Origin: a virus
Reading direction: 5' to 3' (one strand)
Virus record (IMG/VR): IMGVR_UViG_3300044623_000711
Span: 1-40,625 of that record
DNA length: 40,625 nt
Made by a program: the position numbers and the translations under genes. Positions 13,784-28,328 of this stretch are shown in pieces; positions within the stretch are counted from its first letter, which is position 1; the number at the start of each line of letters is the position of its first letter. The notes under the pieces were generated by a model. It saw only the letters and a list, made by a program, of their open reading frames with translations. It searched no databases and was not told where the DNA came from.

Positions 13784-14446
13784 TTAGTAGGCCGGCATCA
13801 GCACGTCAGCCACCTTCTGCGTCAGCTCGACATCACGCAGGCAGTAATTGATGGCCGCCTCACGGTCGCTTTTAAACAGCTCGGAGAACATGGCCCCATT
13901 GCCGGCCTTATCGCCGAGCCCCAGATGCCTGCTGATGGCCCCGAGACTGCCGTGCGCCCTACTGTCCCCGAGCTGCCACACCTCGCGCAGGTCGACCACC
14001 AGGTCGCTCCAGTACCTGCCCTGCCGTATCCAGTAGGGTGGTGTGATCCTGTGCTTCCATGACCGCTTAATGAGGAAGGGCAAGTCAAACGGTTTAACAT
14101 TGAAACCAATTAGCGAGGGCTGGCGCTCCATGCTGGTGATGAGCTTCCACCACTGGCGCAGCATCTCGGCCTCGCCATCTGCATCACAGCACAGCACCGA
14201 TGGGGTCTCGTGCTCAATACGATAGCCGATGCACAATATCTGGCCCGATAGCGCGTCCAGGGCAGCACCGCGGATGTAGTCGGACACGTGCGTCTCCTCT
14301 GCACGCTGGATCTTCTCTGCTATGAGATCCGGGTTCTTGATGTTGCCGAGCTTCACGTCACTGGCAACGAACGGTGGGATGACCAATTCGCTCAAGGGCA
14401 TAGGCCCGGTCTCGATGTCGAAGTAGATCTTATGGTTGGCTGGCAT
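13784..14446 (-). CDS. DnaQ/PolB-type 3'-5' exonuclease
   Basis: The 220-aa protein holds the three exonuclease motifs of the DEDDy superfamily: Exo I YFDIET (Asp10, Glu12), Exo II LIGFNVKPFDLPFL (about residues 112-125) and Exo III YCLRDVELT near the C-terminus. The order resembles predicted PolB-associated exonucleases. No polymerase domain is attached, and no phage DNA polymerase was recognised, so host polymerase is probably used. The start overlaps the preceding gene by 17 bases. Likely role: proofreading, recombination or nucleotide recycling. Confidence 0.8.
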   Translation of the reverse strand: MPANHKIYFDIETGPMPLSELVIPPFVASDVKLGNIKNPDLIAEKIQRAEETHVSDYIRGAALDALSGQILCIGYRIEHETPSVLCCDADGEAEMLRQWWKLITSMERQPSLIGFNVKPFDLPFLIKRSWKHRITPPYWIRQGRYWSDLVVDLREVWQLGDSRAHGSLGAISRHLGLGDKAGNGAMFSELFKSDREAAINYCLRDVELTQKVADVLMPAY

Positions 14447-14738
14447 TTGGTTTACGGGGGTTGATTGCGTAGTAGGCTGTGTTCAAACCGACATTGAAGT
14501 GATCGGCTATCTCCCGATAGGTGTAACTGAGGTGGGTTTTACGCCATTCAGCGATCTCCTGGGCGATGTCCTTTTTGATGGAATACTTGCGATCTGTGTT
14601 TTTCTTTTCCTTGGGCCCCTTGTTGACCATGGCCTTGGAGTCCAAGTTTTCCTGCTTTGGCTTTGCCTGAGGCTTCACGTACCCGGAAGGCGGAGCACAG
14701 AGCTCTGCGATACGTGCGGCGGTTAAATTGATGTGCAT
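14430..14738 (-). CDS. HTH protein (102 aa)
   Basis: Start chosen at ATG 14738 (MHINLTAARIAEL); an upstream in-frame start would run into the hairpin region. A basic Lys-rich middle (KQENLDSKA, then KKNTDRKYSIKKD) is followed by a C-terminal HTH-like segment, SYTYREIADHFNVGLNTAYYA. It is probably a small DNA-binding regulator. It follows a hairpin (14794-14814) and precedes the exonuclease gene, which it overlaps. Confidence 0.6.
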   Translation of the reverse strand: MHINLTAARIAELCAPPSGYVKPQAKPKQENLDSKAMVNKGPKEKKNTDRKYSIKKDIAQEIAEWRKTHLSYTYREIADHFNVGLNTAYYAINPRKPNASQP

Positions 14739-14793
14739 AAAAGTGATGTGCGTTTGTCGACCGATGCGCACCCCCGGCATTTCCCATGAGTCC

Positions 14794-14814
14794 CCGGTAA
14801 CAACAGGTTACCGG
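14794..14814. promoter_or_regulatory. 8-bp hairpin in early-region gap
   Basis: A perfect inverted repeat, CCGGTAAC (14794-14801) with GTTACCGG (14807-14814) and a 5-nt loop, sits in an 82-base gap between two HTH genes. There is no U-tract on either strand, so it is a poor intrinsic terminator. An operator for one of the neighbouring HTH proteins, or an mRNA processing or stability hairpin, is more likely. Confidence 0.45.
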
Positions 14815-14820
14815 AAAATG

Positions 14821-15219
14821 TTAGATGATCTTGCTGCAGTGGGGGCAGGTCTTGCCCAGTGTTGGCCTGGTCTCCAGAGGAACAACCTCCAGCCACTCGC
14901 AGATCTCGATGTATGACTTACGTCCGAAAGACCATACGCATCCTGGGAACAGGTGGCCGCTCTGATACAAATCCAAAGCGTGCTCCTTGCTATTGATGCC
15001 AAGGTTCTCCAACACCCGGGAGGCCCGTACGCTCAATGGGAAGCCCCACAGGCTCAGGATTCCCTCCATCTGCTTGGCAGACTTGATGATCTGATGGACA
15101 CGTTGCCGGGTTACGTTCAGTTCCTTCCCGATCTCGTCCATGGTGCGCCCTTCGGCTCGCATCTGAACCACGCCCGGCACCAGGTGGGCTACCTTTTGGT
15201 ATTGCTTGCGTGTTTTCAT
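14821..15219 (-). CDS. Sigma-R4-like HTH plus alpha-CTD-like transcription protein
   Basis: Start at ATG 15219, one base after the SSB stop; the longer open frame upstream is a shadow of SSB. Residues 24-50 (RTMDEIGKELNVTRQRVHQI) match sigma-70 region 4 or related HTHs. Residues 56-110 match the RNA polymerase alpha C-terminal domain pattern: LSVRASRVLENLGI, then a spacer and SFGRKSYIEICEWL. A CxxC knuckle (CPHC) ends the 132-aa protein. The combination suggests a phage factor that binds promoter DNA and redirects host RNA polymerase. Domain matches are by eye. Confidence 0.65.
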   Translation of the reverse strand: MKTRKQYQKVAHLVPGVVQMRAEGRTMDEIGKELNVTRQRVHQIIKSAKQMEGILSLWGFPLSVRASRVLENLGINSKEHALDLYQSGHLFPGCVWSFGRKSYIEICEWLEVVPLETRPTLGKTCPHCSKII

Positions 15220-15220
15220 G

Positions 15221-15958
15221 TCAGAAGGGCACGTCGTCGAAGTCGGGCTGATCCTTGGCATCGATCTCACGCAGGCGCTGGATGACCGCGGCGATGAGTT
15301 GTTTGTCATCCGGTGTCTTGCCGGCGCTGATCTGGGCTTTCGGCAGCCAGTGCTCGCCCAGGCCTTTGACCGCAGAGTCGGCCAGCTCCGAGAGCGGTGT
15401 GCCCTTGAACTTGCCCACGTGGACCTTGGTGGCACTCAGGTCAACTGGTCGAGGTGTCGTACCATCCGGCACCACAGTCTTCACCTTGTCGTCATCCTTG
15501 GCCGGGCGATCCTGCATCCGCACCCACAGGCCCGAGGGTTGAAGCGGCTCGCCATGTTTGTGCGGCATCATTAACTTGATGTTCGCGTAGGTCTTGGTGC
15601 CGTCCTGTGACTGCTCATGGGCGATGATGAGCGTCACCGGCTTACCGATGAGCGACTCAAGGTCGAGGCCGTTGTTCTCCGCATCGGTGAGCTTACGGCC
15701 AAACCAATCCTTGAGCACCTTAGTCAGGGCTGCCTTCTCATGGAGGCTCGGGACCAGGGGCTTGCTGAACACTACCCAGGGCTGCACCGGGTCGCGTGAT
15801 CCGTCGATGAGGTCGAGCTCAAAGGCGAACTTGAATTTCTTCTTAACACCGTACTCGGTCTCGTACTCCCGGAGGGGGGTTACGTCTACGCACACTGCTC
15901 GGCCACTAAACTCGGGGCACGGTGCGAACTCTTTACCGCCTGCTGCTTTAATGATCAT
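15221..15958 (-). CDS. Single-stranded DNA-binding protein
   Basis: The 245-aa protein starts at ATG 15958. The N-terminal 130 residues are beta-rich and OB-fold-like (VCVDVTPLREYETEYG, then FAFELDLIDG). The protein ends in an acidic tip, DFDDVPF, matching the conserved SSB C-terminal tail that recruits replication partners. A Lys/Asp-rich linker joins them. It lies among exonuclease, HTH and RuvC genes, as expected for replication/recombination. Phage SSB-like families differ in the core, so the exact family is open. Confidence 0.75.
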   Translation of the reverse strand: MIIKAAGGKEFAPCPEFSGRAVCVDVTPLREYETEYGVKKKFKFAFELDLIDGSRDPVQPWVVFSKPLVPSLHEKAALTKVLKDWFGRKLTDAENNGLDLESLIGKPVTLIIAHEQSQDGTKTYANIKLMMPHKHGEPLQPSGLWVRMQDRPAKDDDKVKTVVPDGTTPRPVDLSATKVHVGKFKGTPLSELADSAVKGLGEHWLPKAQISAGKTPDDKQLIAAVIQRLREIDAKDQPDFDDVPF

Positions 15959-20424: not shown

Positions 20425-23211
20425 TTAGGCCAGCGCCACTGATTTCCAAGCGAATCCGTTGTGAATGTAAAGCACGTTGGTGTTGGTGCTGTTGTTTGTG
20501 TGGAAAAACATCGGCACATTATCAATGCCCGTGTTGGTGGGGGTGTTGCTTGGGGCTGTTGGGCCTGCCGGAATGTAGACAAACCCATCGACCATCGTCG
20601 AATATCCGAGAGGCCCTTTGAAGTCTCCGTTGACCTGATTCCAGCCTGCCCCCTTGATCAATTTCCCGGTGACTCCATCGAACAGCACGAAGTTGTTGTC
20701 AGCGGAAGAACCAGGCCCCACCACGTTGCCTGAGCCCGTCCCAACAGCGTTCAGCACGCCGGCAGTCAGCGACAGGCCTGCGCCCAACGTGAGCTGCTCC
20801 ACACTGCCTGTGCCTGCCGTGCTGCGCCCAAGCACCCGGGCGGTTGCACAGGTTATCCCGGTGTTTTGAATGGCTACAGGGAAGGTGCAGTTGGTAAGCG
20901 TCCCTCCAGAAGGCGTGCCGATGTTCGTATTCAACAGGCTGGCAGTTGTCAGGATGGCTGACGTCTCACGCACCAGATTGCCTGTGCCCGTAGTCGCCCC
21001 CACCTTGATGATCTTGCCAGTGGTGCCGTTGAAAACAGCTACATCCCCATCGACTGCTACGCTCGGCCCGGTGACATCCCCTGAACCGCTGGCGGTAGCG
21101 TTCAGCGTGTTGCCAGCCATCGAAAGGCCTGTGCCAAGGATGATCTCGTCGATAGCAGTGCCCAACGGGCTGCTGCCCAAGAGCCTAGAGGTAGCGCTGG
21201 CAGCCTGAATCTTGCCGTAGGTCACCTTGTTCGCACCGATGGTCGTGGTGATCCCAGTGCTACCGCTGCCGCTCACATCGCCACTGAGGACAATGGCCTG
21301 GTCGCCAGTGTTTGTTCCCGAGGATGAGCCGGTAAGATTGCTCCCAGTGACCGTACCCGATGCAGCCACCGAGGTGGGAGTGATGGCCCCAAGGACAATC
21401 GTGATGGCCGGGGTGGTGGTAGGGTTGGCCACCGTACCGCTGACTCCGTTTGCTGTAACTACCGAGGTCGTGGTGACCGTGCCGGCGTTGGATGTAAACC
21501 CACTGGGGTTGGCCGCGGGATAGGCTCCCAACGAAGTAAGGGCTGCAGCAGCGCTGGTTGCTCCTGTACCGCCATTGGTGAGCGCCAAAGTGCCGCCGAG
21601 GGTCAAAGTTCCCGAAGTGGTTATCGGGCCGCCTGTGAAGCTCATGCCCGTGGTCGAGCCATCGGCATTGACGCTGGTCACCGTGCCCGTGCCTGGTGCC
21701 GAGGCTGACAGCGTGTTGCCCACCATCGCCAGGTTGGCCCCCAGGTTGATCTCGCCGATGCTGGTGCCTGTGGCGTCGGATCCAAGCAGGCGCTTGATAG
21801 CGGCAGCCGACTGGATTTTGTCGTAGGTCACCGCCCCATTGGTGATCGTGGTCGCGAAGGTGGTGGTGCCTGTGCCTGTCACCGGCCCTGTCAGCGCGAT
21901 GATCTGGTCACCGGTGTTCGCTCCCGAGGTGCTCCCGGAGATGTTGGTGCCGGTCACCGTACCGGTGGAGGCTACCGAGGTTGGCGTGATTGCTCCCAGG
22001 CCCAACGAGATGGCCGGGGTCGTCGTCGATGTACCTACCGAGGCTGTGATGCCGTCGGAAGGGGTCACCGTGACGTTGGTCACCGTTCCCCCGGTGCCTG
22101 TGGCCGAGAGCACAGTGCCGGATAGCGAGATACCGCTGCCCAGGCTGATCTCCTCGACCTGTCCTGTGCTGGAACCTCTGCCCAGCAGCCGGTTGGCAGT
22201 GCTCACATACTGCATCTTCTCGTACGTGACAGCCTGCGGGGTGATCACAGCCGGGATGCGGCCTGTGCCCTGCCCGGTGACATCACCTGTCTCAAGGATG
22301 TAGTCGCCGGACTCGGTGATCAGGAAGTCGCTGCCCTCGGTCAGCATCCGGTCGCCGCTCAGGATGATCACCTGGTCGCCGGTGTTAACTCCCGACAGAT
22401 TGCTACCAGTGACCGTAGCCCCGGCAGATATTGCCCCCGAGGCAGCCACACTGGTGGGGGTAATGGCTCCGAGTGCCAGGGTGATGGCCGGCGTCGTTGT
22501 GGACGTTGCTACGGAGCCCGACACGCCATTGGCCGTGGTTACAGATACGCTTGTAACCGTTCCGCCTCCAGCCGGTCCCGGGGGTCCAGCAGGGCCTGCA
22601 GGTCCAGCCGGGCCAGGTGCGCCTTGGATGCCCGATCCACCGGAGGGCTTGGTCAAGCCGGTGTCCAATCGTGTGATCTCGCAGATAGCGTAGATTTCAT
22701 CAATGTTGGCCAGGCTGGTAGGAATACCGAGGTGATTAACGCCTGCTGATGAGATGTAGTATTCCAGCCGGTAAACGTTGTCCTTGTGGGGTTGTACCCG
22801 GAGATTTAGGTCGATGTACGTGTTGGCCTGATTGGAGACCTCGCTCGACACGCTGTACCCGATCACTACATCGACCGGTGACCCAGCACTAGCAGTGGCC
22901 TCTGCACTGGCTGTGACGTCGTAGATCCGCATCCTAGTGTGCCCAGTGTGTCGGAAGGCAGCCATGGCCCGTATCTGGTAGGCACCTGCAGCCAGTTTGA
23001 AAGTGTTGCTTTCCAACTGAAGGATCAGCCCGTTGGGATCGACGGCAATGGTGTTGAGCGTCCGAGTCGACCAGGTAGTCGCCACACCGTTGCCACCACT
23101 GGTGCCCGAGGTCTTACTGTCGGTAAGGACAGCCACCTTGAGAGTAAGGCTGTCGACGTCTTTCCTGAGCTTGTTAATCAGGGTGGTGCTGGTCTGTGAA
23201 TCGTAGCTCAT
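20425..23211 (-). CDS. Collagen-like tail fibre (928 aa)
   Basis: Start ATG 23211 overlaps the preceding stop (ATGA). Domains in order: a short coiled coil (residues 12-31), a C1q/TNF-like beta sandwich (about 40-185), a collagen-like Gly-Pro-Ala run (about 197-213), then repeats of GVSGxVA...TTTPAIT and GDVTGxG units. Four units carry VTYxKxQ...RLLG followed by LGxGLSL. No signal peptide. It is most likely a trimeric receptor-binding fibre. The 309-aa protein at 32883-33812 has one copy of the same VTYxKxQ...RLLGR unit. Confidence 0.8.
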   Translation of the reverse strand: MSYDSQTSTTLINKLRKDVDSLTLKVAVLTDSKTSGTSGGNGVATTWSTRTLNTIAVDPNGLILQLESNTFKLAAGAYQIRAMAAFRHTGHTRMRIYDVTASAEATASAGSPVDVVIGYSVSSEVSNQANTYIDLNLRVQPHKDNVYRLEYYISSAGVNHLGIPTSLANIDEIYAICEITRLDTGLTKPSGGSGIQGAPGPAGPAGPAGPPGPAGGGTVTSVSVTTANGVSGSVATSTTTPAITLALGAITPTSVAASGAISAGATVTGSNLSGVNTGDQVIILSGDRMLTEGSDFLITESGDYILETGDVTGQGTGRIPAVITPQAVTYEKMQYVSTANRLLGRGSSTGQVEEISLGSGISLSGTVLSATGTGGTVTNVTVTPSDGITASVGTSTTTPAISLGLGAITPTSVASTGTVTGTNISGSTSGANTGDQIIALTGPVTGTGTTTFATTITNGAVTYDKIQSAAAIKRLLGSDATGTSIGEINLGANLAMVGNTLSASAPGTGTVTSVNADGSTTGMSFTGGPITTSGTLTLGGTLALTNGGTGATSAAAALTSLGAYPAANPSGFTSNAGTVTTTSVVTANGVSGTVANPTTTPAITIVLGAITPTSVAASGTVTGSNLTGSSSGTNTGDQAIVLSGDVSGSGSTGITTTIGANKVTYGKIQAASATSRLLGSSPLGTAIDEIILGTGLSMAGNTLNATASGSGDVTGPSVAVDGDVAVFNGTTGKIIKVGATTGTGNLVRETSAILTTASLLNTNIGTPSGGTLTNCTFPVAIQNTGITCATARVLGRSTAGTGSVEQLTLGAGLSLTAGVLNAVGTGSGNVVGPGSSADNNFVLFDGVTGKLIKGAGWNQVNGDFKGPLGYSTMVDGFVYIPAGPTAPSNTPTNTGIDNVPMFFHTNNSTNTNVLYIHNGFAWKSVALA

Positions 23212-26200
23212 TTGTTCTTACGTCGAAGGATGCGCTGGGCTTCGTCAAGGCTGGCTGCTACACCGATCAATTCTCCTGCAGGTCCATATAAACGCAGGCT
23301 GCCTTTGGCCTTTCCAGGTAGTGCACGATAGCCTCCGGTAAAACTGTAGGCCCCGGGCATGGCGGAGTCGGGCTGGGGCATGAATCGAAGGCCTTGATCA
23401 CCAGAAACACGCTCGACAGTGGCAATTCTGTTGGCGTTATCGGTGTACTTCTCAACGTAGAGACCAGAGTTCCTCAATGCATCAACCACATCCTGAGAAG
23501 TCGACTCGGGAACAATAGCAGCTTTGAACTCATTCAGTCCAACCGCACGTTGAGGTTTAGCCTCAAAGTATTCGGTAGGAGCGTCTTTCAGGGAGAGGGC
23601 AAAATTCTTTACGTCCGACAGTGCTTGTGGGGTGATACCAACGTAGTCAAAGGAAGCCAACACCGATGCTGCTGAAGCCGGACGCTTGGCAATCTTGCCC
23701 ATAGCTTCAGAAAGATTATCTAGCCGATCAAATGCGTTCCGATTCGGATACTTGTCAAACGGAGCTAATGCTTCTACGACTTGGTCAAACTGGTTTTGGC
23801 TGTTTTTTCGAAATGGCTTTAGCTCCTCCCGCGTCATCAGGCTTCCTTCAGCCGCCCGTGCCTGGCCAAGATCGCGGAACTGCACCGCAGACTCAGAGCG
23901 AGCACGCCCAAGTGAATGCGTTAACCCACCTTCCTCTTGACCGCGGACTTTTCCGGTCATTGCATCGGTGACGTTTTCAAGGGTGTACGGCAGCTTCTTG
24001 CTTCCTCGGATCAGTTTTTTATCGGGTTCAAACGTGTCAGCCACCAGTCCGTCTACCCAATTCTTAAACTCGGTTTCACGGGGTTTGATTTGCTCACGGA
24101 TCCACTCCTGAATGCCGTAACGATCAACCTCCTTCTGGTTCTTTGCGACGATGTCCAAGTCTCCCACAATATCGTCGGCGTACCGAAACGGAAACGGAGT
24201 TCCGGGATCACCATAAGACTTTTTCACCAAGTCGTTCAGGCGCTGTTTCTGCTCATTATTCAGGCCTTCCACATTCCCGCCACGCTCTTTGTATGCAAGA
24301 TCGCGAAGAACGTCACTTGCAGCAATCCCATCCGGTGTCTGGAGAAAGTCGTAAAGGTCACGGCTATGCTGCGAAAGCACAGCCAGTCTCGGGTCGGAAA
24401 GTTGCTCCTTTTCCAAAACACGGTTTCGGAGATTGGGATCCTTCATCAGGCGCGGGACTTGGACGCCATTCTGGGTCAAGAAGGCGGCTTGCACGTCTGC
24501 TGATCCGGTCAATTGGCGAGTGGTCTCTACGACATTGTTTTCGCCCTTCTCTACTACCCGGTCATAAGCCCGTTCACCGGGAGCAATATCGTTCCAGTTC
24601 TGAAAGCCTTTCGGCAAAAGCGCCAGCATCCGCTTAGATAGAGCGTCTTTGGCACCACGCTTCACAGCCTGAAATGGACGTGGCTGTCGCGGAGAATACA
24701 CGTCCGCGTTGTACAGTCGGTTGCGAGGATCTGACTGGGGATCAACTGTCGCTTTGTCTGCAATCAGCGTAATGTCTCCAAATCCAGTGAAAGCCTTGTC
24801 CTTTTTGGTAATTCCCAGACTAGGCACAGGTATGCCCCCCAACTTCAAAGCAGAGCGAATGCCCTCTTCCGTGGTGTTGTGCAAGGCCACTAAGTTTTGG
24901 TCGACATCTGGCATGAACCTTACATCCCCCGCTTGTCGAACCGCCCCGCCTTCGCCTTGGCCTTCTTGGCCACCGACAGCGCGATTGCGACCGCCTGCTT
25001 CTGTGGCTTGCCGGCCTTCATCTCCCGCTTGACGTTGCTGCTGACTGATTTCGGGCTGTAGCCTTGTTTGAGTGGCATAATCTTTTTCTGCTTTGAGTTT
25101 GGCTTGTTCCTGAGTGTCGAAGATCCCAACGGTTGATCCATCGGGGCCGTACAGGCGGAACTTTCCGTTCTTCGACAAGATTCGATAACCGCCATTCTCA
25201 TCGGTGCTGACCCTGGTCTCACCAATGGCCTCTGCAGGCATGAAGTTGAGCTGAGTGCGGCGGTAGCTTGACTGCTCGCCCATGTCGCCTGTCCAGGGGA
25301 TCTGAGCCTTAGTGGAGTCGGCATTCTGGATGCGCTCAAGACGCAGATCCTGGTAGACCGATCCTCCCTTGCGGTTGGCGACGTAGCCGGCAGTCGGGAA
25401 GTTGACCATGACGTCCCCCTTCTTGGGAACTGCACCCATGATCTCGTTGAACATATTGCGCTTCTTAGCGCCATCGATGCCTCCACCAAGCGCCTCGGCG
25501 GAAGGCACAGCACCGGTCTCAGCAATGTTCTTCAGGTACACGTCACGCATCGTGGACATGGCCTGGTCGTAGTTGTTGAACAGGCTCTTGTAGGCCGGCT
25601 TGGTGAGAGCCTTGTACATCCGGGCCTGCACCTTGCCCCAGTCGACCACCTTGACGTTGACGCCGCCCTTGCTGTTGATCGAGATGCCGTAGGGCAGGAA
25701 CAGCTTCTGGGACTCGTCAAACACGCCAGACTTCCCGGTGGATCCGTAGACCTTCCAGTAGCTGCCTTCCATCAACGTGCCATCCCGGATTGCGGTGGCG
25801 ATGTCGATCAGTGTCCTGGAAGAGGATGGACCAAAGATGCCGCTCTTCGATACTGCATCGGCCTCGGCCAGGCTAAGTCTTCCTTCGATGACCGGGTTTC
25901 CGTAGGCATCCATGCCCGAGATGCTGGTGCGTTCAGCCTGAGGAACAGACTCGACGACACGCATCGTGCGGTTAGCTATGTCAGCAGTTTTGGCTGCGAG
26001 TTCAGCCTTAGACAACGGCCTGACGATGCTGCCATCCGGGGCAGTCATAAACAGGTCTGAGTAGCCTCGGGCCATGATGACCGCATTCTGCTGCGCCTGG
26101 GTCATCTTGTTGATGTCGACCCGCTGCTCGGTGGGCTCATAGCCCTCCTTAGGAGTCACCAGGTTCTTGATGGCATCCTCCATCCAGTCGAGCTTGATGC

Positions 26201-28328
26201 GCCGTCCGTTGGCGTCGTAGAAGGTACGGGCAACAGGGTCGAAACCAGCCTGCAATGCACGCCGAGTGAACCGTTCCGAAACAGCCTCCTTGGCGTTGTT
26301 CAGCGCCATCTCAAGGAAGGAAGGAATGCGACCCGGAAGCATCGTCTTCGGGTCTTTGCCTTTGAGCATTTCCTGCGTGTAGTACGCGGCAAACTCATCG
26401 GTGATGCGCTTGAGAGACTCAACCTTTTGAGCCCGTTGTTGAGCAGGATCAAAAGCATCCCGGAGCTCAGTGCGGATGCGGTCAGCAACCACGCGCCCAC
26501 CAGCCGATTGTAGTTTGTCGGCGTACTTGTTAGCGAAGTCGGTGAATTGCCTCTGGAAGTTGGGATCAGCAGAGGCAGTGTCGATGGCTTTAGCCCCAAG
26601 CTGACTCACCATGTCCTGCGTGATGCGTGCGTGCAGGATCTCATGCGGGAGTGCTTCGGGGCTGGCCTTGTCGACATTGATCAGGATCGTCGGCTTTCCG
26701 CTCTTGATGTTGTCGGGACCGATTGCAACACCGGCATAATTCACGTTCTGCAGTCCAGCAGGGACCGTGTCTGCATCGGTGTGGAAGATGACATCGACTC
26801 CAGCGCCTTCAGCACCTGCAACCTCGGACAGCGCCTTAGTGAGCTGCTTGTTGTTGAGGCGTCCGTACAGGGTGGCGCGTGCCTCGGAGTCCTTAATGGT
26901 CGCAGTCTGCTCGCCGGCCACCGGGTCAATGTAGGTGAACTGCACGTCGGTGGGACGAGTGTTGAGATCATCCACCGCGGTCTGTCGGACACGCCCACCA
27001 TTGAAGGCGTTGGCTTGAACAGCCTTAGCGAGCGTGAACCCACCGTCAAAAACACCAAAGCCAGCACCGCTGCCAATGGCCGCGGCAACAGCATCGCCTT
27101 CTTCTCCGGTCAATGCAGCGAGGGCACCGCCGGCAACGCCAGCACCTGCCATCGGCAAAAGAATCGTTGCTGCGCCCCTTACCGGAGTCTCAAGGCCGCT
27201 CCTGGCGAGAGCGGTGCCTAAGGCCCGAGCCCTAGATGATGCGCCTTCAGCCGCGGCAATACGCTCGCCAGCCCCCAGAAGGCCGCGCTGGGTCGCCGTA
27301 AGGCTTGGACCACCGGATACAGTTCCAGCCTCACCAACGGTCTCCATGGCCCCTCCTAGGCCCTTGGTTGCAGTGATTGTCTTAGCAACAGTTCCTAGAC
27401 CAGGAACATTCATGGTAAGCGGGATGCCAGCAGCCTCACCCAAGGTGATTCCTGTGGTTCCTTTGGCGATACCTTCCTGCACCGCTTGGCCCATTTGCTC
27501 GGACCCGGTGATGCCAGCAGTGATTCTGCCTGCTATGTTTTCGGGGCCGCGGCCTAGATTAGAGATGCGTTCGCCAGTGCGTTGGAGAATCTGTCCTGCC
27601 CGGGGGATTAGCGGGATAGCACGCTGCGCCAATGCAGACGCCAGCTTTCCACCGCCGGCAAAAGCAATGGATGACGGGTCAGCAAGGAACCCACCGACAT
27701 CTAAGCCTTGCTGGCTGATTGCTTCCTCGGGAATGCCATAGGCCTGCAAGACATCCTGAGAGGCAGGAACACGCTGGTCTCCTGGTGCATTGGCACGGGC
27801 CAACTGCCGCTTGATCTCGGCAGCAGCAAGGAAGGCCTCGTACTTGTCGTCGTCGTTGCGGAGCTTTCCGGTAATGTCCGACAGCTTGTTCAGCGCGGTG
27901 TCGATCAGTCCGCGGCCCATGTTTTCGGCCTTGAGCCTAGATTGAACTGCGATTTCTGCAGCAGTACCACCGGCAAGCTGCATTGGTGTGACGCCTTCAG
28001 GAGGGTCCATGTACTGCCCAATGGCCTCGCCCAGCTTGTAAGGCATTGAGGCAATGTCCTCCACCGTTTGGACGGCAGCAGTGCCAATGGTTTCCAGTGG
28101 TTTCTCGCCGAGCAGTGGCTTGGTCTTGGATACCTTCAGGTAGTCGAGGAACTCTTGCTTGCTCGGGGTGTAGTCGATCTGCGCTCCTTGAAACTGCAGC
28201 ACCTTGTTGTACGAATCATCAGGTGTTGGCGGGAATTCCTTGGATACAATTGCGTCTATGTCCGCATCGGATGCCCCATCAGCGAACTCAATGCTTCCTC
28301 TATTTGGAATCTCAACAACGATTGGCAT
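23208..28328 (-). CDS. Giant polyvalent/internal virion protein (1706 aa)
   Basis: The N-terminus (VVEIPNRGSIEFADGASDADI) matches the start of many phage internal or ejected proteins. Ala/Gly-rich helical segments follow, then a metallopeptidase-like LPHEILH (His562, Glu563, His566). Two similar GGYRxxxxGKxRLYGPxG motifs lie near residues 1059 and 1679. A segment after residue 1137 (VALHNTTEEGIRSALKLGG) resembles an enzymatic domain of phage polyvalent proteins, perhaps ADP-ribosyltransferase-like. Likely ejected with DNA or acting early in the host. Residues 1083-1137 overlie a 52-aa gene in another frame. Confidence 0.75.
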   Translation of the reverse strand: MPIVVEIPNRGSIEFADGASDADIDAIVSKEFPPTPDDSYNKVLQFQGAQIDYTPSKQEFLDYLKVSKTKPLLGEKPLETIGTAAVQTVEDIASMPYKLGEAIGQYMDPPEGVTPMQLAGGTAAEIAVQSRLKAENMGRGLIDTALNKLSDITGKLRNDDDKYEAFLAAAEIKRQLARANAPGDQRVPASQDVLQAYGIPEEAISQQGLDVGGFLADPSSIAFAGGGKLASALAQRAIPLIPRAGQILQRTGERISNLGRGPENIAGRITAGITGSEQMGQAVQEGIAKGTTGITLGEAAGIPLTMNVPGLGTVAKTITATKGLGGAMETVGEAGTVSGGPSLTATQRGLLGAGERIAAAEGASSRARALGTALARSGLETPVRGAATILLPMAGAGVAGGALAALTGEEGDAVAAAIGSGAGFGVFDGGFTLAKAVQANAFNGGRVRQTAVDDLNTRPTDVQFTYIDPVAGEQTATIKDSEARATLYGRLNNKQLTKALSEVAGAEGAGVDVIFHTDADTVPAGLQNVNYAGVAIGPDNIKSGKPTILINVDKASPEALPHEILHARITQDMVSQLGAKAIDTASADPNFQRQFTDFANKYADKLQSAGGRVVADRIRTELRDAFDPAQQRAQKVESLKRITDEFAAYYTQEMLKGKDPKTMLPGRIPSFLEMALNNAKEAVSERFTRRALQAGFDPVARTFYDANGRRIKLDWMEDAIKNLVTPKEGYEPTEQRVDINKMTQAQQNAVIMARGYSDLFMTAPDGSIVRPLSKAELAAKTADIANRTMRVVESVPQAERTSISGMDAYGNPVIEGRLSLAEADAVSKSGIFGPSSSRTLIDIATAIRDGTLMEGSYWKVYGSTGKSGVFDESQKLFLPYGISINSKGGVNVKVVDWGKVQARMYKALTKPAYKSLFNNYDQAMSTMRDVYLKNIAETGAVPSAEALGGGIDGAKKRNMFNEIMGAVPKKGDVMVNFPTAGYVANRKGGSVYQDLRLERIQNADSTKAQIPWTGDMGEQSSYRRTQLNFMPAEAIGETRVSTDENGGYRILSKNGKFRLYGPDGSTVGIFDTQEQAKLKAEKDYATQTRLQPEISQQQRQAGDEGRQATEAGGRNRAVGGQEGQGEGGAVRQAGDVRFMPDVDQNLVALHNTTEEGIRSALKLGGIPVPSLGITKKDKAFTGFGDITLIADKATVDPQSDPRNRLYNADVYSPRQPRPFQAVKRGAKDALSKRMLALLPKGFQNWNDIAPGERAYDRVVEKGENNVVETTRQLTGSADVQAAFLTQNGVQVPRLMKDPNLRNRVLEKEQLSDPRLAVLSQHSRDLYDFLQTPDGIAASDVLRDLAYKERGGNVEGLNNEQKQRLNDLVKKSYGDPGTPFPFRYADDIVGDLDIVAKNQKEVDRYGIQEWIREQIKPRETEFKNWVDGLVADTFEPDKKLIRGSKKLPYTLENVTDAMTGKVRGQEEGGLTHSLGRARSESAVQFRDLGQARAAEGSLMTREELKPFRKNSQNQFDQVVEALAPFDKYPNRNAFDRLDNLSEAMGKIAKRPASAASVLASFDYVGITPQALSDVKNFALSLKDAPTEYFEAKPQRAVGLNEFKAAIVPESTSQDVVDALRNSGLYVEKYTDNANRIATVERVSGDQGLRFMPQPDSAMPGAYSFTGGYRALPGKAKGSLRLYGPAGELIGVAASLDEAQRILRRKNK
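24920..25078 (-). CDS. Overprinted 52-aa basic protein inside the 1706-aa gene
   Basis: ATG 25078 to TAA 24920, in a different frame of the giant gene. The product begins MPLKQGYSPKSVSSNVKREM and continues with KAGKPQKQAVAIALSVAKK and a basic Gly/Arg tail. This closely resembles small basic phage proteins I recall as independent genes (DUF6496-type in wording). In the giant frame the same bases give a Gln/Gly/Glu-rich low-complexity linker. The family-like sequence in the second frame is the main support. Whether it is still translated is unknown. Confidence 0.6.
   Translation of the reverse strand: MPLKQGYSPKSVSSNVKREMKAGKPQKQAVAIALSVAKKAKAKAGRFDKRGM

Follow-up and report, generated by a model that had tools for sequence, protein, structure and literature searches.

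A 132-residue phage protein pairing a sigma region 4-like helix-turn-helix with a divergent alpha-CTD-like domain

The locus and its genes

The window analysed here, a 40,625-base virus contig from IMG/VR, carries a 132-aa gene on its minus strand, with the ATG at 15219 and the end of the stop codon at 14821, and genes for a capsid protein, a DnaB-like helicase and an exonuclease share this strand. The minus-strand sequence of 14821-15219 is MKTRKQYQKVAHLVPGVVQMRAEGRTMDEIGKELNVTRQRVHQIIKSAKQMEGILSLWGFPLSVRASRVLENLGINSKEHALDLYQSGHLFPGCVWSFGRKSYIEICEWLEVVPLETRPTLGKTCPHCSKII. The gene, the parts of its predicted product and the adjoining features are as follows.

14821..15219, minus strand: gene for the R4/alpha-CTD-like protein, 132 aa plus stop, supported by IMG/VR homologs and purifying selection
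15055..15219, minus strand: N-terminal domain, residues 1-55, a sigma-70 region 4-like helix-turn-helix (HTH), from Pfam Sigma70_r4 and model helices
14875..15042, minus strand: alpha-CTD-like helix-hairpin-helix (HhH) domain, residues about 60-115, from profile, fold and profile-profile comparison
14830..14849, minus strand: CPHC knuckle at the C-terminus, covering residues 125-128 together with their neighbours, with C125, H127 and C128 invariant
15221..15958, minus strand: upstream neighbour, 245 aa, with an acidic, SSB-like tail that closes with DFDDVPF; immediately precedes the gene in 59 of 63 loci
13784..14446, minus strand: downstream neighbour, a PolB-type 3'-5' exonuclease (PF10108, 44.3 bits against 24); downstream in 63 of 63 loci
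14748..14818, minus strand: intercistronic hairpin and H-type pseudoknot, 71 nt, outside the protein, with covariation, at least 173 instances and no Rfam match

The ATG of the 132-aa gene lies just beyond the stop of the same-strand 245-aa gene upstream. A 204-aa version of the same frame, starting at GTG, was rejected as the gene, as the alignment of homologs starts at the ATG and the additional upstream part overlaps the preceding gene. Successive searches of IMG/VR recovered 11, 14 and finally about 63 phage loci with homologs (45-96% identity), essentially full-length in 62 of the 63, with the remaining copy truncated by a contig end. In relatives close enough for measurement, synonymous changes far exceed non-synonymous changes, with an omega of about 0.08-0.22 against close relatives and 0.40 against the most distant relative tested, and the family is under purifying selection. 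The gene is genuine and conserved, and a chance motif can be excluded because of this conservation, the low omega and the shuffle-controlled profile comparison described below. Searches of GTDB species genomes, cultured phages and plasmids, with a reach limited to fairly close relatives, returned no homologs, so that the family looks restricted to a group of uncultured phages.

The 132-aa gene sits within a replication cassette. The 245-aa protein encoded upstream belongs to phrog_862 (function unknown) and has no Pfam match, and its acidic tail and position suggest an SSB-like protein, while genes for a Holliday-junction resolvase (phrog_1770) and a DnaB helicase occur nearby in the same stretch. 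A scan of the window ORFs, some small ones excepted, brought no RNA polymerase to light, and transcription of the phage therefore probably relies on the host enzyme. A regulator that acts at promoters is plausible on this account; the location within the replication cassette leaves room for a role in replication as well. Promoter-like sites near the gene were no commoner than in shuffled sequences, and neither a target promoter nor an operator came to light. Elsewhere in the window, a 1706-aa protein (23208-28328, minus strand) possesses a PBECR5 domain (a Barnase/EndoU/ColicinE5/RelE-like nuclease) at residues 1144-1297.

Between the 132-aa gene and the exonuclease, the 71-nt hairpin and pseudoknot are conserved in all relatives examined. 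Across 30 distinct sequences of the element, 98.9% of cells pair, compared with a shuffled mean of 92.1, and both sides of a pair have changed in 44 cells, compared with a shuffled mean of 15, with slid versions of the structure not coming close; the variable pair of the pseudoknot is T-A in 29 and C-G in 18 of 47 unique sequences, with no mismatch. A strict pseudoknot pattern has at least 173 instances in IMG/VR, with the exonuclease nearby in 171 and the R4/alpha-CTD-like gene nearby in 166 of the 173. Single-sequence folding of the element was unremarkable (z of -1.0) in a folding program that does not model pseudoknots. In one contig (L111, positions 1-450) the SSB-like tail runs directly into the pseudoknot and the exonuclease; hairpin 1 is absent from this contig, and no R4-alpha-CTD gene was detected near its pseudoknot. 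The hairpin as an operator for the 132-aa protein is thus disfavoured, because its arms covary in the manner of an RNA stem and the pseudoknot and exonuclease persist in L111 where the R4-alpha-CTD gene was not detected. The next gene is either a small HTH-like ORF or the exonuclease, and the element, probably its structured mRNA leader, is a candidate new cis-regulatory RNA. A resemblance of the pseudoknot to the guanidine-III riboswitch was considered and set aside, as a comparison with Rfam returned no match to that riboswitch even at E <= 10. A small ORF (14430-14780, minus strand) between the 132-aa gene and the exonuclease is present in one clade and missing from the other, and its conserved starts (MHINLTAARI/MKLNLSAERI) suggest an ATG later than the one listed, which would leave the RNA element untranslated.

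The two domains and the cysteine tail

The N-terminal domain was described previously, from the letters alone, as a sigma region 4-like HTH, and this is upheld by a match of residues 22-48 to Pfam Sigma70_r4 (PF04545) at 29.6 bits, above the gathering cut-off of 24.1, and by the same match in all 10 members scanned. The closest PDB sequences are primary sigma factors, with weak scores (best E of 3e-4), and HTH_23, HTH_28 and MarR_2 score slightly under their cut-offs on the same domain. Helices in the model span residues 3-22, 27-34 and 38-58, and Q39, R40 and Q43 of the recognition helix, equivalent in our own alignment to sigma-70 positions 585, 586 and Q589, are invariant in the family. The domain thus resembles sigma-70 region 4 in its HTH and in a portion of the helix that recognises the -35 element; the Pfam alignment spans just model positions 18-44 of 50, and of the sigma models only the region 4 part matches the 132-aa protein. 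Sigma region 2, responsible for -10 recognition and core binding, is absent. Because of this partial coverage and the lack of region 2, the domain is best described as R4-like rather than as a sigma factor, and a complete sigma-70 family factor can be ruled out for a chain of 132 aa in total that lacks regions 2 and 3.

The case for the C-terminal domain draws on four kinds of comparison. Pfam RNA_pol_A_CTD (PF03118) gives the window protein 13.3 bits at full length and 15.2 bits for the domain only, below the cut-off of 23.8; of 32 members, 23 show the same subthreshold match (best E of 0.012), the sole recurrent Pfam match of the domain. When a profile built from the 32 domain sequences was run on the full set of PDB chains, just two entries scored E <= 10; each is an RNA polymerase alpha subunit and aligns over the entire domain. 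The AlphaFold2 model of the domain alone has a mean pLDDT of 91, and the PDB fold closest to it is the alpha-CTD of H. pylori (2max; prob 0.85, TM 0.59 by query), followed by 7vpd_S (prob 0.80, TM 0.67 by target), a chain from an RNA polymerase complex of Streptomyces that we read as the Streptomyces alpha-CTD. RNA polymerase alpha chains or complexes account for about half of all the fold-search hits of the domain, and three of 20 hits in a viral fold library bear the name 'RNA polymerase, alpha subunit, C-terminal'. The E-values of the domain fold search are weak (best 1.3), as is common for a domain of only about 70 residues, and rank and agreement were weighed instead. With the full-length model, most hits were to HTH folds and no hit reached E <= 0.001; that search is uninformative because the HTH dominates it. 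Finally, in an hhalign comparison with 14 alpha-CTDs the family scored 44.5 (E = 6e-9), with a maximum of 16.3 over 200 column shuffles and 9.7 for the reversed alignment.

A generic HhH repair domain was considered and set aside, with no HHH_* Pfam match in the 32 members and with fold hits to Hel308 and RFC (prob 0.05-0.11) ranked under the best alpha-CTDs. By the combined weight of the subthreshold Pfam matches, the PDB profile search, the fold search and the shuffle-controlled profile-profile comparison, residues of about 60-115 are established, at the level of sequence and model, as a genuine, divergent alpha-CTD homolog. The alpha-CTD signature named in the preliminary description therefore stands: the model is confident, alpha-CTDs top the fold comparison, and the profile searches match alpha-CTD and sigma R4 and no unrelated family. 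The fold, motif order and DNA-binding 265 determinant are common to this domain and the RNA polymerase alpha-CTD, whereas, compared with the complete alpha subunit, the window protein lacks an alpha NTD, falls under the Pfam cut-off and has altered 261 and 287 determinants.

The roles of the 261, 265 and 287 determinants in E. coli alpha-CTD are well established, and the positions were mapped here with our own alignment. Amongst 44 distinct homologs, the residues equivalent to the DNA contacts R265 (R65), G296 (G99) and E302 (E105) are invariant, K298 (K101) and S299 (S102) are each kept in 43, and the position equivalent to N268 is occupied by asparagine in 31 and arginine in 13. The acidic 261 determinant is not kept and has an invariant W58-G59-x-P61 in its place, and the segment of the 287 determinant is swapped for a longer, equally conserved segment containing SGHLxP. 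This residue pattern speaks for a domain that serves to bind DNA rather than to imitate the protein contacts of alpha. Beyond the domain, the CxxC knuckle reported earlier is confirmed as a single knuckle, with C125, H127 and C128 invariant in the same 44 homologs. A complete zinc ribbon, which has two CxxC knuckles, was ruled out, as one CxxC is conserved and the other invariant cysteine, C107, sits in a helix.

Related architectures in other phages

Sigma R4 and alpha-CTD are DNA-reading modules that in bacterial RNA polymerase normally belong to different subunits. Their pairing in one protein is not unique to the window family. IMG/VR was searched with an alpha-CTD consensus that we made without any sigma part, and eight distinct proteins, chosen by eye for a sigma-like HTH (L079, L081, L082, L083, L084, L085, L094 and L097), were then scanned with Pfam; all eight possess Sigma70_r4 followed by RNA_pol_A_CTD, both above the Pfam cut-offs. 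Seven of these fusion proteins, combined into a profile, align to the window family across both domains with the domain order preserved (hhalign E = 5.7e-9, columns 16-110 on 58-214). While a Sigma70_r4-type HTH followed by an alpha-CTD in one chain is common to both, the fusions are 221-390 aa with long linkers, have both domains far above the Pfam cut-offs and in some cases carry an XRE-type HTH, whereas the window protein has 132 aa, joins its domains by a short linker, ends in a CxxC tail and has a divergent alpha-CTD that is three residues longer in its middle. In L084, L085 and L097 the XRE-type HTH, sigma R4 and alpha-CTD occur on a single chain.

The window protein is a compact, divergent variant of a recurrent and apparently undescribed phage architecture, with at least eight other phage proteins sharing the combination. 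The statement in the preliminary description that the combination has no standard name holds insofar as neither a name nor a description was found in the open-licence literature; uniqueness does not. The fusion was not seen in 15 bacterial genomes of one class, a narrow sample, which gave only single-domain matches that we read as rpoA and sigma genes; a scan of bacterial genomes with L082 as query returned an R4 fragment only.

Ruegeria phage V16, Bacillus phage Goe8 and Microbacterium phage Mazun also carry an alpha-CTD within a phage protein, fused in these phages to other domains; a sigma R4 domain was not detected in V16 or Mazun with Pfam, nor in Goe8 with NCBIfam. In Ruegeria phage vB_RpoS-V16 (L065, 3932-4798), the alpha-CTD lies at the N-terminus of a 288-aa protein, the C-terminal part of which in our reading resembles a MazG-type pyrophosphohydrolase; RefSeq labels its copy a pyrophosphatase. 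A survey of jumbo phages (PMC7824862) describes minimal sigma factors with a single HTH as well as gp33-type proteins that bind the flap. These minimal factors and T4 gp33 are, like the window protein, small phage HTH proteins that are sigma-related or sigma-replacing, but they consist of a single HTH or a flap-binding domain, with no alpha-CTD-like domain mentioned in the excerpts of PMC7824862 that describe them.

A putative composite promoter reader and its alternatives

On balance we favour, with modest confidence, a reading of the protein as a two-domain, sequence-selective DNA-binding regulator that would alter the access of host polymerase to composite promoter sites. The sigma R4-like HTH would recognise a -35-like site through its major groove and the alpha-CTD-like HhH domain would grip the neighbouring minor groove, so that the two reading heads on one chain could bind a composite site, akin to sigma R4 beside alpha-CTD on UP/-35 DNA, an arrangement present in PDB 3n97 (listed in the full-length fold search). 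Occupied sites on phage, and perhaps host, promoters may leave transcription by the host RNA polymerase repressed or retargeted in the replication phase. Simultaneous DNA binding by both domains, the promoter sites and the transcriptional output are all what we infer. Counting against the regulator are the scores of single proteins (13-15 bits against the PF03118 cut-off) and the setting amongst replication genes, just as compatible with a role in replication.

Such a role, in which the protein would be a replication or recombination accessory factor to the helicase, the Holliday-junction resolvase, the exonuclease and the SSB-like protein, with both domains on double-stranded DNA either at the origin of the phage or at recombination intermediates, is the obvious competitor, given the near-constant SSB-like and exonuclease neighbours, the resolvase and helicase genes in the same stretch and the frequency of HhH domains amongst DNA-repair proteins. 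It is nevertheless unlikely in our estimation, as the C-terminal domain matches alpha-CTD and not other HhH families, the N-terminal domain is nearest to sigma R4, and operon position alone does not fix function. Still less probable is that the protein recruits holoenzyme to phage promoters, with the HTH docked on the beta flap in the manner of sigma R4 or with the domain replacing the host alpha-CTD in activator contacts. The origin of both domains in RNA polymerase and the jumbo-phage precedents noted above are in its favour, and the preliminary description had indeed proposed a bridge between DNA and host polymerase. That proposal loses ground here, since the minor-groove DNA contacts are nearly invariant while the 261 residues are lost to the invariant G59 and P61 and the 287 segment is replaced, and the HTH match is limited to part of region 4; a DNA reader is favoured over a bridge for the same retention of DNA contacts and loss of the 261 and 287 surfaces. 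An ordinary small HTH repressor, with a C-terminal module of HhH descent serving merely in structure or dimerisation, agrees with the near-cut-off scores of HTH_23, HTH_28 and MarR_2, but is very improbable given that precisely the DNA-contact residues of alpha-CTD are nearly invariant, in 43-44 of 44 homologs, which argues for retained DNA binding.

Beyond the window family, it is conceivable, though rather doubtful, that several phage groups have joined the holoenzyme modules for the -35 (sigma R4) and UP (alpha-CTD) elements of bacterial promoters, independently or by exchange, into a portable UP/-35 reader that blocks or redirects the host RNA polymerase, of which the 132-aa protein would be a minimal version. 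Even as a replication-linked DNA binder and nothing more, the family shows that an R4-alpha-CTD architecture, as yet unnamed, recurs in phages. If a composite UP/-35 site is read by the regulator favoured here, the protein would be a promoter reader that is both natural and portable and would give phages a new means of taking over host transcription, and the promoter-recognition modules of the polymerase would be capable of being detached and recombined.
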